Assembly (NCBI GenBank): GCA_000697355.1
Contig: JNEN01000861.1
Coordinates: 228,389 to 292,388 of the forward strand
Source of the DNA: Syncephalastrum monosporum B8922
Lineage: Eukaryota; Mucoromycota; Mucoromycetes; Mucorales; Syncephalastraceae
Length of the DNA: 64,000 nt
Reading direction: 5' to 3'
The stretch's first letter is position 1. Each line of letters starts with the position of its first letter. The translations under genes and the position numbers were made by a program. The notes beneath the pieces are model-generated. The model was not told the origin of the DNA and searched no databases. It saw only the letters and a program-made list of their open reading frames with translations. Below, in pieces: positions 25,463 through 38,245 of the stretch.

Positions 25463-27249
25463 CTGAAAAGGTTAAGGCTTCCCTCCGAAATGTAAAGATG
25501 AACAATGGCGCCATGAATGACGAGCGCTGCTTGAAGTTACATCGCACGATCGTGACGTGCTGATCTCAACAGGTGCTGACTTTCCAAAAGCAATGCAAAT
25601 CCACTTTGTACCATATGCATGTAGCCTTGTCATTGACAGCTTAATTTCAAATGAATGCATCTCGCTATGCATGCATACGCAGGGCACCATTCAGGGTGAT
25701 GAGGGAAAAAATTTTTTTGTATTGTACTCCAAAAGGGTCCTTCTACACATATGTCGACCCACAAATAAAGCTCTATGGTGCCTTTCTCTTTTGTGTCCCT
25801 TTTGAGTGTGAGGAGCCAAGACTATCTCGATGGGAGTACTCCAGCACGAAAGGGAACCTGTATCCCGTGTGTTGTTGCAAAATGCATGCGCACGTTTGAA
25901 GGGAAATTCCACGTTTCGTTCAAGTTTGCAAGCGAAAGGAGCAGCGAGAATGACCTTGTTTGTGCAAGCACACGCAAAGGGATTGTTACCTTTCGTCGAC
26001 CACGCAAACAGGTGGTACAGGAGGGGATAAGCGTAGGTAGGGCAGACGGGTGCGCGGGTGAAAGAAGGAAGAGGGCAAGTGGTGAAGGAGAAAATATTTA
26101 ACATTCTAAAGGTAGAAGGCATGGGTGAAATACAAGGAATGGCGTGTGTGGAAAATGCGCGGATTGACAACCAAAGTGCGCGTAGTCCATGAATGGTTGT
26201 ACAAGAAGTGACGGTAACACAAATATAAGAGGTCGTTAAAGAGGAACATATGCATTGCATGCATATACGCGTGTCCTACCTGGAACCAACCCGCTGGACA
26301 CGAATGACATATAAATATGTATATATAGCACATACTGATCAGCGTTGTCCTTTCCCTACTTGAACAATATATACCACGATATCATCGTCACATTTTTATA
26401 ATGGGAGCTATATGTGACTTTGGCCAAATAGAAATAGAAAAATAGAAAGAGAGAAAAACGAGAGAGAGGGGGTGGGAGCAGCAGCTGAAGAGGGAGGAGG
26501 GGCAGAAAAGAACAAGTAAGGAGCAAACGCGCGTATAGTAAGTTACAATTCTGAAATCATTCGCGCTACGGGGTAGGAGGGTGGAGTTCCCCGGATCCAT
26601 TATGTACTTGTGCGAATTAAAGTGCCATGAAAAGTAAAAGACAGTGTCAATGCATCATATGCATTTGTGACACGGGTACATATGCGAGCACTTATTGTGG
26701 GGCATGGTGTTATTACCCTCTTATCAACAAATATAGAAGGTGATGCTTCAAGGAGATGATCCTTGGATGGGATGAAAGGGGATTGGGGGAGAAAGAAAGC
26801 GGTATAACATGGAGGGGAGCTCGAAATATTAATAGGGGACTTTGGTTAGTCTCGGATCGATCGTCTAGTAAAGTATATACGGTATAGATTAAAGTTCATC
26901 GGTTAAGGCTATTGCCAAAAGAAAAGGCGCATACTGTCTGTGATATTCTCGATTTTCAGTTTCCCCGTCGGAAGTTTCAGCTTCGACCGTTCTGCCTGTC
27001 ATATTGCATAATGCGTATTTCTTTTTTGTTCTTACGCCTCCTATCTATTGACAGGTGTTTCTAACAACGTGCGCGGATAATATATACAGGGTGTACTCAG
27101 GAGACAAAGGGTCCTCTGATTTATATAAAAGCAGATCACTGTCTTTCTGCACGGTTATTACTCATCGCTTTCTTCTCTGCTTTCCTTACTGACTTACATC
27201 TGCATTCTTTCTTCTCTACATTCACTCCCTGCTCTTTACTTTCGTAAAC
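25463..27249. other. Intergenic region, about 1.8 kb
   Basis: Contains promoters for the flanking genes. Several frames of 70-190 codons occur on both strands, but they have no domain-like composition and overlap one another. No RNA gene or repeat was recognised. Confidence 0.5.
27120..27130 (+). promoter_or_regulatory. TATA box of the Myb/SANT gene
   Basis: TTTATATAAAA lies about 120 bp before the ATG at 27250 and is followed by a pyrimidine-rich leader. Confidence 0.55.
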
Positions 27250-27984
27250 ATGGATATCAAAAATTTGCTTTGCACTCGCGCCCACGACGATGACACTATC
27301 CTTATTGACGAGTTCCCAAAGTCACCTATTTCCGTCGAGCCGACTTCGTCGTGCTGGTCCACCTATTCTGCTTCGTCAGCCTCGACGAGCAACAGTCCGT
27401 CTTCGTGCTATTCATCGCTTCCAAGCACACCTTCCTCGCCTACTACACCCACTGTCGCCGCACCGATGCGTCCTGTTCTTCGTCAACCGACGCCGCACCA
27501 CCATCACTCTGTGCAGCATCACCATCCGTATGCCCGACCTAGTTCTGCTAGCACCAACGGCAGCACTGGAAGTAACGGCAGCAGCAGAGTCACTTCTTCC
27601 GCAACAGGGAGCTCACGTCACACCACCCAAACGCGCACACCCTGGACAGCGGAGGAAGATTATTTGCTGCAGCAAGGTTATGCTCAGGGGCTCTCATGGG
27701 CCATGATCTCAGCAACCTATCTGCCACACCGTTCTCGCGGATGCTGCTGGGGCCGCTTCAAGACGCTCCAGACCAAGGCACTCGAGCAACGCGAATGGAC
27801 CAATACCGAGGAGCGAATGCTTATTCTCGCTATCAAGAAGCACTCGCACTTGTTCAATGAGGCATGGAAGTCTGTTGCTCAAGATATGGGTGATCGGTCT
27901 TGGAAAGAATGTGAATTCCGCTCGGCAAAAATTACCAGCATGATCCGCAAGAAGCAAAACCCCAGCAGCGCCAAGCACCTTTAA
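27250..27984 (+). CDS. Myb/SANT-type DNA-binding protein
   Basis: An intronless gene of 244 codons, unusual among these neighbours. Residues 1-125 are Ser/Thr/Pro/His-rich and probably disordered. Two SANT/Myb-like repeats follow: TPWTAEEDYLLQQGYAQGLS (about 130-174) and REWTNTEERMLILAIKKH (about 181-232), each with the regularly spaced Trp or aromatic residues. It is likely a nuclear transcription factor. A strong TATA element, a long untranslated 3' region and the lack of introns suggest a regulated, rapidly expressed gene. No closer assignment is possible. Confidence 0.8.
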   Translation: MDIKNLLCTRAHDDDTILIDEFPKSPISVEPTSSCWSTYSASSASTSNSPSSCYSSLPSTPSSPTTPTVAAPMRPVLRQPTPHHHHSVQHHHPYARPSSASTNGSTGSNGSSRVTSSATGSSRHTTQTRTPWTAEEDYLLQQGYAQGLSWAMISATYLPHRSRGCCWGRFKTLQTKALEQREWTNTEERMLILAIKKHSHLFNEAWKSVAQDMGDRSWKECEFRSAKITSMIRKKQNPSSAKHL

Positions 27985-29476: not shown

Positions 29477-32400
29477 ATGCTCGCCTTATTCCCATTACTC
29501 GTGTCTATTGTAGCCATCATCACAACACCAACAAACACCGCTTATCGTGCAGAAGCCCAGGCTCCTGTTATACCGATCTGTTCACCCAATAATCGTACGC
29601 ACAGCGCGCCCGTCTTTGCGATCATATCCCATGATTCAATCATCGCTACTTACTTCCACAATCCCGAACAAGCTGCTCGCGATACAGCTGCCATACTCAA
29701 TGTCCAAATCGAGTGGGACCGTCATGTCAACAACTCAGTTTCCACCATGGTGGACAACATTTATAGTGCTGTCCAAAATGTATGAAAAGGCTTCTGCGAC
29801 CTGTATGGATAGATCTATTCACAGTCCTCTCTCCTTTAACCTAGGGTGTTGACGGAATCATTACAACTATACCAAATGCCGAAGTAGCCGATGCTGCTCG
29901 GTATGCGAACCAGCAAGGTGTGCCCGTCATTGTATTCAATTCTGGCCTTGAGTTTGCGGCTGAAATAGGCCTCAATCGTGTCCTTCAGAATGACACCGAG
30001 GCCGGCATGATCCTTGGCCAGGAGCTACGATTGCGCAACTACTCGAATCCCTTGGCCGTGCAGCTTACGAGCAGTATTGACAACGTGGTCTACAATCTGC
30101 GGATGAATGGAATTTCTGACGCTCTGGGTGTGGAGGGTATACAACGCCTTGCTCTGTGGAACTACAACAATACCAATCAAGCCATCGAACAAGTGGAAAG
30201 TGCGCTCCTTGAAGGCAATTACGACTCCGTCATTTCGCTCGGCGGCACGGTATGTGCATTTGTCTTCAGTTATCAGATATAGACTGATGCTTCCATTCAC
30301 ATGTAGGTTGCGGTGGATATTGTATCATCGGCTGTGCTGGATATTATTCACAAGAAGCCGGGCGCACGTATGGGTACTGGACTTTTTGACCTTGGGTCCT
30401 TGAACATGAGCAACCTATTCTACTTCCATGAAGATACCTTTGCCATCTCGCAACTACCTTATTATCAATCCGCTATACCCGTCTTCCTCCTGTATATTCG
30501 GGTAAAGTACCGCCATTCCATCAAAGTATGATCTATTCACTCATGTCTGTTTGACTTTGATTGGCAGTATACAACTGGAAACGACCCGTTCATCAATCAG
30601 ACAATACCCACAGGTCCCAACCTCGTCACAAACTCCACTTTAAATGAAGCATTGGAAGCAGAGCGAGCTACGTTACTGCCGTTACAAGAGATTAGCGCAA
30701 GTGTCGGCGCTATTATTCCCAATGTCAATGGTGACACATACGAGGCCTCGCTTCTCGCAGGCATGTATGATCTAGCCCAGAAACTCAACTGGTCTATCGT
30801 CAAGGCAGACGAGGATCGTTTGACAGGTCCGTTCTTTATTATACTCCCATGTAAACTGTAAGCTGATGGAGCCCAAATATAGACAACGCGAGTTCATACA
30901 TCGATTATCTCCAGAGCTTTTCGGACCAGGGCGTACGCGGAATTATGGTGCAATCGAGCGATCCTTATGTTGCCGCGTATGCCCAGCAAATAAATATGGG
31001 AACGGGGACTCCTATATCCATGATTGGCTCTTTCTATGAGCCGCTTGATGTGAACCAGACTTTGTATGTCCAGTTGCAAAGAGAAACCACGACGCTAACT
31101 AAGATGTTTGCAGGACGTTTACGAATAACATTGTCTTGGATCGAAGGTCACTCGCATATTCTGTGGCAACCGAGCTGGTCGCAAACGATGTGATTAATCC
31201 CGTATGCATTGGTGAATCCAACGCTTGGGCGACAGGCGAGATCTGCTCGTTGGTGTGGCAATATTACCAGCAATTGACCCCAAACGCGTCAGCGTTGCCT
31301 CCTGAGACATTTTTCTTGCAAAATATCAACTCATCATCTTTTTCAACCATGGAGACCGACTTTCAGTCGATGATGCAATCCTTGCAAAGCTATGGGTATA
31401 ATCCGAAACTGCTCATTACCTTTTCCGAGCACGTGTTCAGCGCGATCAACTATGTAAGATCATACACAAGACCATCTATTGCGTAAATCTGACTTGTATT
31501 GAAGCGTATGTTGCGAGGCCTCATGAGCTCCGACATCCACTTGTATACGTCCTCTGACATGTTTGACCAGTATCAAGCTTACCTTGATGGCCGCGTGGCC
31601 AAAATGTGGTAGGTTGCAGAAAGTTGATTCAGAATGACGCATTCCAGCCCGCTTATGAGCTTCACTTAGGCACCTCAATGTTTTCTCATACGGATTTCTG
31701 GGTACACTCGATCTCTTACTTGCGAAAACCGTCGGTCATCGGCCATGGAGCTTTATGCAGTTAGGAGCACCGCTCATTGAGGACGTATGTCCAGCTGGAC
31801 AATATTATTTTGAGCTTGGAAGCACACCTTATTGCTTTGATGAACAGCAAGACATGACGGCGCTCTCGATTCAGTGTGAGCCCTGCCCCATCAACACATA
31901 CAACAACAAGCCCAACAGTGGTTCGTGCGAGGAGTGTCCTCATGGCACATACTCCCAAGGTGGAGCTACGGAATGTCTTTCCTGTGACGCGCCCGACTCA
32001 AACAGTACATTGTGTGCGGCCTACAAGGAGGAACGAAGCGATTACCAACGGCATCTATATTTATCCATATTTCTACCCATTGGGTTTATAATCCTTGGAG
32101 CCGTGATCGCTCTCTGTACATGGTGCTATATCCGCCACCGACGAAAGGATCAAGAGACGCTTGCCCACAACAGCTGGCTGCTATCACGCGCTGAGCTTTT
32201 ACGACCCTCAGTGAACCATTGGTCGTCCCTTCCTGATACTCCCTCTTCCGTGGTCGCTCTCAGTAGTATCCCTGATCAGATGAAGCCGCTTAACAACGGC
32301 GAGAGATCTCCTGCGGCGGCAGCGGGTTGTAGCAGCGGTCGACTGAACTTGAGGGAGAGGGAGAAAATACCGGATTCTGGGGAGACCCAACAACAACAAA

Positions 32401-35400
32401 TGAGTCGACGTCGGCGTCCATTTTCATCCATCCCGGAGGAGAGCCCTATCGAACCGGCGGTACACCCATTCGACTACAGTACGCGTCCGCTGCCTCCGCT
32501 TCCTCCGCTGCCGATGACACTCGAGGTACCGTCTATTCACAAGAGCACGTCGTACGAGCGTGAAGGGCCCGATTATTTTAGCATCAATGCAGCAGGCACC
32601 GCCGTCGACGAAAAGTCTGATAGCGTGCTCTATCACCCTCCAGGCGAAGATCGACTTGCACTGGAGCGAGCAGTGGGTTTTCAGTAAGTAATACATTATA
32701 CCAGTTGTACAGAAGCGTTGACACGTACCATGTATAGTCGTAACCTGCCCGTCATGGTCAAACAAATAGGATTCCGTCGTATCCATGTTGACATGAATAA
32801 GCTGCGCGAAATCGGTTTGATGAAGATGGCGCGGCACTCCAATTTAATCGAATTTATTGGTTTATGCATTGACGCACAGGGCACGTTCCTCGTTGAAGGT
32901 ACGTGATTAAATGACGTGATCTTGCAGCAAGTAGCTTACATTTTTGTGCGCAACAGAATATTGCAGCAAAGGATCTTTATCCGACGTACTGAAGAACCCA
33001 GACATTGAGCTTGCATGGATTTTCCGTTTTTCGCTTATCAACGATCTTATAGAAGGTATACTAGGAACACGGAAAAGACGCATTATCTTATATACACATC
33101 ATAGGCCTGCAATTCTTGCACCGATCAAAATTTTTGTATCATGGATGTCTCACCTCGCATGCATGCATGATCACAGGCCGGTGGGAGCTCAAGATTAGCG
33201 ACTATGACCTTGGAGCAGTACGGGACAGCCAATACGACCCCGCAATTCTAGCTGCAATCGAGCAGCAACAAGAGATCGTGCGCGTCATTCCTTCTAAACA
33301 AAAGCTGCTTTGGCTTGCGCCCGAGTCGTGCTACAAGCTCTTGCCGAATGTGTGGTGTACACGCCCGAGCAAGCGTGCTGATATCTACAGGTAAGTGGAG
33401 ATCTGGCTCCAATCAATCGCCACCTGACGTGATCTTGCAGTCTGGGCGTCATCCTCGGTGAAATTGTGAGCCGACAACCGCCTTGGTTCGGTCATGTACA
33501 GGAAGATGCGGACTCTTTCTTTGAACGCATTCAAGGGGACCCTACACTGGTCCCTGTGCCTGCCATTCCCGCCCAAGATGAGTATTCGGCCAAGGTATCC
33601 GATATTGCCCAGCACTGCACCCGACGCGAAGCGCTTCAACGACCATCCATTGCGTCGGTACGCAGCCGTATCAAATTGATTGATACACATCTGGCCGGCT
33701 CAGACAATGTCGTCGACAATTTGGCAAGCTTACTGGAAAAATATGCCAATGACATGGAGATGCTAGTGCGACGCCGCACAGCCAATTTGCAACAGCGGAC
33801 GCAAGAGCTGGAGGAGGAGCGAACGAGGGCAGAGAAGCTGATGGTGGACCTCAAAGCTGCAAAGGAAGCAGCTGAGGCAGCGGCGGCTTCTAAACAGGCA
33901 TTCCTAGCCAACATGTCACACGGTAAGCTCTGATTATCCCTATTAGCCTCCTACCGACCAGTTTTTACTTAATTCACTCAACATCACACTATATACAATA
34001 GAAATTCGGACACCCATGAATGCTGTTATCGGCATGTCACGTATCTTGATGGAGTCCAACTTGCCGGTAGATCTTCATGATTGTGCGGAAACCATTGAAT
34101 CATCTGGTAAGTAAACTATAAACGAGGGGAACATATCATAACTTCAAGTGCATTGTAGGCAATCATCTTATGGCCATTATTGATGATATCCTGGACTACA
34201 CCAAAATTGAATCCGGCAAGCTCCAGCTCGAGCACCGACCTATGGATCTGGTACGTGAAGCTAATAGAATACGCTCTTTCAAGGTCCTCACCTCTCTTTC
34301 CTGTAATATACAGACATATGTGGTGGAGAGTGCTTTAAAACTCGTGTCTCCCAACTTCATGGACAAAGACATGGTCCTTTGGTACAATATTGATCCAGAT
34401 GTACATGTCTCAGTTTATGGCGACGTGGTGCGTCTTCGACAGGTGCTTCTTAACCTGTAAGTTGCCCACTTAATATGTACCATGATGACTCATCTACTCG
34501 TTCAAGGCTCTCCAATGCACTCAAGTTCACAGCAAAAGGTTACGTCGTGGTGCATATTGGACGCGTAACGGAATCTACGCCGGAGTGCCCCCCAACGTAT
34601 GAATCAGTTGAAGAACAAGCGGTCAAGGATAACGATACACGGCAAGGGCATACTGGCTTTGAACATGAAGAGGAGCTACAGATCAGCGTCACGGATACTG
34701 GTATTGGTATACCTAAGGACAAGGCCGACAAACTATTCCAGACCTTCTCGCAAGTAGATGCCTCTACGACACGTAACTTTGGCGGTACCGGTCTAGGTCT
34801 TGCCATTAGCAGGAGGCTGTCGCGCATGATGGGTGGTGATATGGTAAGTCAATGCTGCAAGGGAGTGGAGTTATGGATATGCTGACAAGCTTTGTCTCGT
34901 GTAGTGGGTACTCTCGGAGGAAAACAAGGGCTCATCGTTCATCTTCCGCGTGCGTCTCGAGCAATTGCCTGAATCGCAAACGTACAGCGAAGCAAACCGT
35001 CTTCCGGAGTTACATCCAAATGGCTACGTGCTTGTAATTGCTGAGAACGAGTACAGTCAAATGGCCTGGCAAGATGTCCTACAGAGTGCAGGCATATCTG
35101 ATGTGCGTACGATGACATTTGCGGATGCCGAGACCTATCTGAAGGACAACCACGATAAGCTAGGACTGCTTGTCATTGACGAGGATCTTCAAACCCTAGA
35201 TCCTGATAGCCCCGCGTCTGGTAACAGCTTTGCCGTTCTCAAACACTTGGCGAATATTATGCCTGAGCGCTTGGATAGTAAACCTGTCCTGTGTGTCCGT
35301 GATATGAGAGCCCGCAATGACAGACAGGGCGATTCGCTTCAGGAAGACCACCTGTATGATCCTAGTAGCAGCATGGGTAGTGGCGGCGGTCGTCACCGAA

Positions 35401-36293
35401 CCGAGTCTATGCTGCTTCCCACGTCGGGCCGCAATCAAGTCAGCGATGAAGCATCACCAACGCCCGTGGAGGAAAGACAGGACCCATTCTTGAGTCTGAC
35501 TGTCCCTGAGATGAACGCAAAGCCTTGCGAGCCGGTGGTGCAAACTGTGACGAAACCAGTCAAGAACTCGAAACTGTTTGCGACGCTTTACAAGTTGGTG
35601 CATCCGGAACAGCTGGAAGAAGTAATGCGCAACAGGAAAAAGCGGTCCAATACCACGAGTAGCACCGCCTCATCGTTGCTGACCCCCGGGGCGAAGCGAA
35701 GCTCCTCGACGACGTCGACGGCTTCGGACCTCTCGGCCACGACGAAACCACTCGTGGAACGGATGACCAATGTGCGGTCGCTTCTTGTCGACGACAATCC
35801 GGTCAACCAAAAAGTAGTGACGCGCATGCTCTCGCGTCTTGGCGTGCATCCGGATATAGCACAGAACGGCAAGGAGGCGTGCGACAAGGTCTTTGCTTCG
35901 CAAGAAACGGATAAGCCCATTGACCTCATTTTCATGGATATCTGGATGCCCGAGATGAATGGACTGGAAGCAAGCAAGGAGATCCGAAAGCAACACGATT
36001 CCAAGGATAGTCCGTATATCATTGCCATGACAGCATGCGTGATGCCGGGTGATAAGGAAAAATGCATTGCGGCAGGCATGAATGGCTACGTGAGCAAGCC
36101 TGTGCGCAAGGACGAGCTCGAGGCCGCTATTCACACCTATACCCAGATACTCACTGCGAACGAGCAGCAGCAGCTCCGCACCTCGCCCCCCACCTGGCGC
36201 TCGGGTTCATTCTCAACCTCTGTTTCAGACCTAACGGTTGAAAGCGATGCGACTCATCTGGCTCCGCCTTCCTCTAATGACAGGCGGGGGTGA
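29477..36293 (+). CDS. Receptor hybrid histidine kinase: tandem PBP-like ectodomain, receptor-guanylyl-cyclase-like pseudokinase, HK and receiver
   Basis: Seventeen exons: 29477..29779, 29845..30249, 30307..30501, 30568..30826, 30883..31063, 31114..31453, 31505..31608, 31670..32683, 32738..32898, 32957..33055, 33105..33390, 33441..33922, 34002..34106, 34159..34250, 34314..34456, 34507..34843, 34905..36293. They give 1964 residues. Order: signal peptide (1-22); two sugar-binding periplasmic-binding-protein-like modules (about 45-300 and 330-620) with many N-x-S/T sites; Cys-rich GCC2/GCC3-like module (about 636-710); one membrane helix (about 725-750); Ser/Pro linker; protein-kinase-like domain (934-1190) with HGCL for HRD; helix [20 protein letters not shown] as in receptor guanylyl cyclases; HisKA NMSHEIRTPMN (His 1276); HATPase DTGIGIP and [13 protein letters not shown]; degenerate receiver (about 1530-1620); receiver with phospho-Asp about 1847. 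A membrane receptor feeding a phosphorelay. Confidence 0.93.
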
Positions 36294-36884: not shown

Positions 36885-38245
36885 ATGTCGTCCATCGGTG
36901 TAAGTGCTCCATCCACGCATCCATCCGTCCATCTGTCCATCCGTGCATACCATGCTGACCCTCTCGTTGCAATTCTGTAGACTGTCTTCACCTACCCCAA
37001 CAACCCCCGCGTTGCTCGTGCCCAGATTGCTGTATGTCCAATGTCAATGAGACACGATCAGCGAGAAAGTGACGCGCTAAACATGTACTTTAACAGGGTG
37101 CCTACTCTGGTGCTACCGTCAACACCAAGGAGTTCAACCTTCAGACCGACCGCACTGCCGAGTTCTTGAAGAAGTTCCCCATGGGCAAGATCCCCGCCCT
37201 TGCTGGTGACAAGGTCGACCTCTTTGAGTCTGCCGCCATTGCCTTCTACGCCGCCGCCCAGCAGGCCAACTCGCCCCTGATTGGTCAGAACCCTGTCGAC
37301 CAGGCCCTGATCCTCCAGTGGACCCTGTTCGCTGAGAACGAGATCTGCACTCCCGTCGGCCAGTGGGTCTACCCTCTGCTCGGCTACCGCCCCTACCTCA
37401 AGCCCGCTGTCGATGCCGGCATTGAGTCCGTCAAGCGCTCGATGAAGGCCTTGAACGACGTGCTCCTGACCAAGACCTACCTCGTCGGTGAGGACATCAC
37501 TCTGGCTGACATCAACGTCGTGACGGCCCTGGTCGTGCCCTTCACCACCGTCTTCGACAAGGAGTTCCGCTCGCAGTACAAGAACGTCCTCCGCTACTTC
37601 AACACCTGCGTGAACAAGCCGCAGTTCAAGCAGGCTCTTGGTGAGGTCAAGCTCTGCGAGACTCCCCTCAAGTACACTCCTCCCAAGAAGGAGAAGAAGG
37701 AGACCCCCAAGAAGGAGACTCCCAAGAAGGAGGCCAAGCCCGCTGCTGCTGCTCCTGAGGAGCCCAAGCCTGAGCCCAAGCCCAAGTCGGCTCTCGATGC
37801 CCTGCCCCCTTCGCCCTTGAAGCTCGACGAATGGAAGCGCATGTACTCCAACAACGACACTGACGTCGCCATGAAGTGGTTCTGGGAGCACTTTGACTCG
37901 GAGGGTTACTCCATCTGGCGCGCTGACTACAAGTACAACGACGAGCTCACCCTCGTCTTCATGTCCAACAACTTGATTGGTGGCTTCTATGCCCGTCTCG
38001 AGCGTGCCCGCAAGTACGCTTTCGGCTCCATGATCGTCTGTGGCGAGAACAACAACAACACCATCTCCGGTTACTGGATCATCCGTGGCCAGGAGATCCC
38101 CTACGAGATCTACGATGCCGCTGACTTCCCCTCCTACCAGTTCACCAAGATCGAGCCCTCGCAGTACGAGGAGAAGAAGGACGAGATCGAGAAGTACATG
38201 GCCTGGGAGGTCGAGGGCTTCGCTGATGGCAAGATCTTCAAGTAA
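36885..38245 (+). CDS. TEF4: Translation elongation factor 1B gamma
   Basis: Exons 36885..36899, 36981..37031 and 37097..38245 encode 404 residues. A glutathione-transferase-like N-terminal half (TVFTYPNNPRVARAQIA, FPMGKIPALAGDKV, VGEDITLADINVVTAL) is followed by a Lys/Glu/Pro-rich linker (PKKEKKETPKKE repeats, about 200-230). The conserved EF1G C-terminal domain (EWKRMYSNND, YSIWRADYKYNDELTLVFMS, GSMIVCGENNNNTISGYWI) ends EGFADGKIFK. It scaffolds the eEF1B nucleotide-exchange complex for eEF1A. Codon use is extremely biased to C/G-ending codons, which marks a very highly expressed gene and creates a long spurious antisense frame. Confidence 0.97.

Follow-up and report, generated by a model that had tools for sequence, protein, structure and literature searches.

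The window analysed here, a 64,000-nucleotide stretch of the Syncephalastrum monosporum genome, carries a gene at 29477..36293 (+ strand, as are all parts of the gene placed below) whose spliced in-frame model has 17 exons and encodes 1,964 amino acids, the same length as the product proposed in the sequence-only reading. The ATG at 29477 and the stop ending at 36293 are both right, the spliced frame holds no internal stop, and every one of the 16 introns is GT-AG and 49-79 nt long. The product runs from a signal peptide through a sugar-type binding domain, a weaker second copy, a Cys-rich module, a membrane helix and a kinase-homology domain (KHD) to a signalling helix, HisKA, HATPase, a putative degenerate receiver and a receiver; matches to Peripla_BP_4, PK_Tyr_Ser-Thr, HisKA, HATPase_c and Response_reg all exceed the Pfam cut-offs. 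Upstream of the gene, an open frame at 27193-27984 reads by eye as a small Myb/SANT-type DNA-binding protein; on its other side, one at 37094-38245 (+) resembles, when inspected by eye, elongation factor 1-gamma, with a GST-like start and an EF1G end.

The N-terminal signal peptide (residues about 1-28, 29477..29560) is followed by the first periplasmic-binding-protein domain (residues about 45-335, 29609..30669, with introns 1-3 inside), which scores 63 bits against a Peripla_BP_4 cut-off of 35.1. Tandem binding-like ectodomains had been proposed; the first copy stands, and the second (residues about 347-622, 30703..31748) is weaker than claimed, reaching 18.5 of the 35.1 bits when scanned alone, with alternating alpha/beta elements at this position in the predicted fold of the relative P0119. 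Similarly, the Cys-rich module (residues 636-712, 31788..32018) does have nine Cys, but its Ephrin_rec_like score of 18.4 bits lies below the cut-off of 23.1, which the relative P0002 barely passes at 23.2 bits. The single transmembrane helix (residues 724-746, 32052..32120; hydropathy maximum 2.65 at 727-745) was borne out, as was the hydrophobic N-terminus, both from hydropathy only. N-glycosylation sequons number 14 in the 692-residue ectodomain versus 3 in the cytosolic 1,219 residues, and this excess before the membrane helix fits an ectodomain outside the cell with the remainder in the cytosol.

Where an animal receptor of this kind would have its cyclase, there is a HisKA domain (residues 1267-1331, 33892..34217, introns 12 and 13 inside; PF00512, 68 bits) with phospho-acceptor H1276 (33919-33921), an HATPase_c domain (residues 1378-1521, 34419..34961, introns 15 and 16 inside; PF02518, 93 bits) and a C-terminal receiver (residues 1795-1911, 35781..36131; PF00072, 87 bits) with acceptor D1847 (35937-35939). 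The complete set predicted at this position is thus present, all three above Pfam cut-offs and on one chain, as in a hybrid histidine kinase. A putative degenerate receiver (residues about 1542-1735, 35022..35603), which has no Pfam receiver match, is supported by beta/alpha alternation at residues 666-772 of the P0003 model. The Pfam scan found no cyclase domain (PF00211), GAF or HAMP in the window protein; the KHD occupies the stretch between membrane helix and HisKA where Sln1-type proteins carry HAMP. In the genome there are 2 HPt matches and 22 receiver matches, many of the latter being exon pieces of histidine-kinase genes, the window gene included.

The KHD (residues 934-1199, 32682..33690, introns 8-11 inside; PK_Tyr_Ser-Thr 83 bits, matching residues 935-1192) finds GC-A among PDB sequences at 1.2e-31 and LIMK1 at 2.5e-15, and GC-A outscores the next non-cyclase kinase by 53 bits; by fold, the KHD is level with several kinases. 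The alignment with GC-A continues from the KHD directly into the signalling helix (residues 1204-1244, 33703..33825), of which the sequence-only reading had quoted residues 1208-1227. Its proposal that KHD and helix are close to animal receptor guanylyl cyclases therefore holds on both this score and the trees described below, and its counter-case, a kinase-like part no closer to them than to other kinases, does not. On sequence similarity the KHD is of the receptor-guanylyl-cyclase (RGC) class. It is also a pseudokinase, dead by motif: in the window protein C1035 replaces the HRD Asp, and when 123 fungal rows (window included) were scored for motifs, none of the 117 scorable KHDs (6 were gapped) had all three of VAVK Lys, HRD Asp and DFG Asp, and the same holds for all of the six receptor-cyclase rows. 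The active site was broken differently in the two fungal orders, with HRD Asp in 0/26 and DFG Asp in 20/26 scorable rows of Mucorales, versus 46/91 and 0/91 in Mortierellales; DFG Asp is kept in 6/6 receptor cyclases.

The same order had been proposed for a search of other Mucoromycota, and it was found there. Residues 930-1335 served as query against candidates of about 1,080-3,440 residues, the 7,993 sharing most 5-residue words being scored, and the counts that follow are for the best 120 of 7,601 passing rows. Scores among these run from 593 bits down to 273, then 205 and 194; because these last two lack HisKA or KHD, the set with both looks exhausted within this search. All 120 names are, we assume, genera of Mucorales or Mortierellales. 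By hand count among these best 120 of 7,601, PF07714 and PF00512 occur together in 118 and all five domain types in 88, and Pfam annotation gives the PF00211 cyclase domain to none of the 120. In a BLAST comparison with eight window segments, segment order was kept in 123/123 fungal rows of the two orders, rows with few segments included, and 92 of the 123 hold all five main parts (first binding domain, KHD, HisKA, HATPase and receiver); gene models that were cut short may account for the rows with fewer domains. On these alignments, the receptor family is conserved in Mucorales and Mortierellales, two orders with soil and bread-mould fungi. Some members bear the database names ‘guanylate cyclase’, ‘RGC protein kinase’ or ‘histidine kinase’. 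Rhizopus, Phycomyces, Umbelopsis and Rhizophagus are all absent from the names of the best 120 of 7,601 matches, which may reflect loss in those lines or the limits of the search.

We propose that the gene encodes a cell-surface hybrid histidine kinase in which a ligand drives a dimer whose inactive kinase part and rigid helix hand the signal on to a His-Asp relay, a reading to which we give a probability of roughly 0.7. The domain layout, the RGC-class KHD, the His-Asp machinery and the conservation in two orders are read from sequence; the ligand, the dimer and the direction of control we infer. Outside the cell, a sugar or polyol would make the first binding domain close, and closure would shift the second copy, Cys-rich stalk and membrane helix of the dimer. 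The catalytically dead KHD, perhaps ATP-loaded, could relay this motion, in the manner of natriuretic-peptide receptors, to the signalling helix. That helix would run on into HisKA helix 1 and rotate or re-register the coiled coil, such that the HATPase phosphorylates H1276; D1847 would next receive the phosphate, followed by an HPt protein and then response regulators.

The linker fits such coupling. Among 123 rows, 115 have both motifs (8 lack one or both), and in 113 of the 115 the spacing from signalling helix to HisKA is exactly 57 residues, as it is in the window gene and, by hand count across one intron, in the genome's second copy. One exception, P0013, at +17, resembles a putative retained intron; the other, the Mortierella relative P0115, has +14, two whole heptads with a tandem LQARTAD, so that its linker differs in length by natural variation while the register of the coiled coil is kept. 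In the P0003 model, a monomer prediction whose coiled coil has a pLDDT of about 46-70, residues 320-408 form one unbroken helix from the signalling helix into DHp/HisKA helix 1. We read the fixed spacing as probable selection for coiled-coil register, although common descent alone could maintain it.

A rival view of the input is that the ligand is a peptide, a cell-wall fragment or a binding partner, with the binding-protein fold as a scaffold. Animal receptor cyclases bind peptides with the same type-I fold, the second copy is degenerate, and the site residue Q285 varies, being kept in 47/80 of 83 aligned ectodomains and, unconserved, in 31/62 of Mortierellales, where ligands may differ or be lost. 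Against this, the closest solved protein to the first copy is a CUT2 sugar-binding protein, and R187 (78/78), D264 (80/80) and T316 (81/82) are kept in the 83 ectodomains; R187 and D264 presumably correspond to the Arg and Asp lining the sugar site of ribose-binding protein. The ectodomain belongs to the Peripla_BP_4 family by its score above the cut-off and by these conserved putative sugar-site residues; its Pfam scan gave Peripla_BP_4/1 only, with no ANF_receptor (PF01094), the domain borne by the receptor-cyclase rows compared. We consider a non-sugar ligand somewhat unlikely, and hold to a sugar or polyol as the candidate signal.

Group X fungal histidine kinases have a kinase-related domain plus GAF, and are cytoplasmic. 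We take it that in this group the kinase-like domain and histidine kinase share one chain, as in the window protein, and that a Ser/Thr-kinase-related sensor domain is one of its features; we know of no binding-protein ectodomain in DhkG or group X. That our protein is an ordinary (Chk1/Mak2-type, DhkG-like) member of this group, its receptor-cyclase likeness incidental, draws on DhkG, which pairs an inactive ePK with HisK and has fungal orthologues (PMC1420674, available part), and on the listing of a Ser/Thr-kinase-related domain among sensor domains of the major fungal groups (PMC4965123, available part); as far as the available parts of both papers go, that kinase domain is not described as RGC class. 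We reject this membership as very unlikely: the window protein has no GAF match but has a signal peptide, membrane helix and binding-protein ectodomain, its KHD lies closest to GC-A by the margin given above, and histidine kinases with a stretch before HisKA that is GAF-like by eye (L006 and L007) exist separately in the genome.

In trees, the window KHD groups with receptor cyclases of animal type and separately from six other kinases. In a quick tree, for which 135 proteins were fetched, a hit-length filter dropped P0120, P0135 and P0130 (the non-cyclase kinase with the highest score) and long branches were flagged, the fungal rows lie on one side of a branch and the receptor-cyclase rows likewise (97 and 97). 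In a careful tree that took in P0130 and P0135 and reduced the fungi to 20 rows, the grouping stayed the same, these two groups carrying 100/97 and 98/94. The receptor-cyclase rows number 6 in the quick and 4 in the careful tree, and of the 6, two are without organism name, one is without a cyclase domain and two are identical where aligned. The fungal part splits into Mucorales and Mortierellales, and Mortierellales into two KHD subfamilies of 38 and 55 rows. Recent transfer of the gene from an animal to fungi could be argued from the Dictyostelium kinome paper, which in its available part terms the RGC kinase group metazoan-specific (PMC1420674), but both trees separate fungi from receptor cyclases, albeit with these few receptor-cyclase rows, and the split between the two fungal orders is as expected by descent; we reject such transfer as highly improbable.

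We suggest, tentatively and as the less probable side of the question, that the ancestor shared by animals and fungi already had a receptor body made up of binding-protein ectodomain, a single membrane helix, an inactive KHD and a signalling helix, the last serving as plug-in point, and that animals, which lost histidine kinases, kept a cyclase there while Mucoromycota kept a histidine kinase. If so, animal hormone-receptor cyclases would be re-plugged descendants of a two-component-type sugar sensor.

That annotation fused two adjacent genes, one for a membrane pseudokinase receptor and one for a histidine kinase, is extremely improbable and is rejected: the gene model is known here from DNA sequence alone, the annotated proteins of several relatives are shorter, 32 of the best 120 of 7,601 matches are missing one or more of the five Pfam domain types (hand count) and the ectodomain comes without a kinase match in 5/6 rows of another search, but the final third of the KHD sits together with the signalling helix and H1276 in exon 12 (33441-33922), and the five main domains occur in order in 92/123 relatives. 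Since KHD, helix and H1276 all lie in this exon, a splicing error cannot account for the join. Around 15 of the 16 introns, most of seven relatives align gap-free with the product across the splice junction; intron 5 falls in a variable loop, introns 1, 3, 6 and 11 show gaps in single relatives, and the sequence flanking intron 4 shows little conservation. These junctions, together with the segment order kept in all the fungal relatives, exclude chance.

Sugar-binding-protein sensors acting on histidine kinases are known from XylFII-LytS and Bacteroides hybrid systems, which pair a sugar-binding protein with a sensor kinase but are without a KHD or an animal-type membrane receptor; XylFII-LytSN entries are among the fold matches of our first binding domain. 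Animal GC-A/NPR1 shares, in the same order, the binding-protein-fold ectodomain, single membrane helix, inactive KHD and signalling helix, and differs in its cyclase, where the window protein has a histidine kinase and receivers, and in its ectodomain, which in the window protein is of the bacterial sugar-binding (Peripla_BP_4) family rather than ANF_receptor. Sln1-type hybrid histidine kinases (group VI) share the membrane receptor, a signalling helix before HisKA and the HisKA-HATPase-receiver series. They carry HAMP and no kinase domain, according to the available part of the signalling-helix paper (PMC1592074), in contrast to the binding domains and KHD found here. The same part of that paper finds the helix after a kinase domain only in animal receptor cyclases, and all fungal versions to be Sln1-like. 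DhkG already pairs a kinase-like domain and a histidine kinase (PMC1420674, available part), so this combination is not new in itself. What seems to be new is an RGC-class KHD, signalling helix and binding-protein ectodomain on a histidine kinase; the earlier statement that no receptor of this order is described agrees with the available parts of PMC5285503, PMC1592074, PMC12394161, PMC1420674, PMC4234259 and PMC4965123, none of which describes it.

Thus the KHD-signalling helix pair known from animal cyclases occurs, conserved, in fungi with another output. This natural domain swap would allow KHD-helix-enzyme coupling to be studied via a histidine kinase readout, for which the +14 linker of P0115 is a ready-made comparison. 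The finding further suggests that a family of cell-surface receptors, candidates for sensing nutrients or host signals, may exist in many soil fungi.

The source genome (27.5 Mb, 198 contigs) has a second gene of the same architecture at locus L028 on the minus strand of contig 42 (G000:C42), which matches the window protein in BLAST pieces of 28-64% identity. A receptor cyclase at another place in this genome was considered and rejected: there are two class III cyclase (PF00211) matches only, and because both look by eye like LRR-PP2C adenylyl cyclases, of the fungal adenylyl-cyclase design, no receptor cyclase was found beside the front end. Three similar histidine kinase loci (L001, L002 and L004, on G000:C154, C146 and C70) have a stretch before HisKA that we take, by eye, to be of osmosensor (HAMP-repeat) type, which suggests duplication of an osmosensor-type group in this genome.
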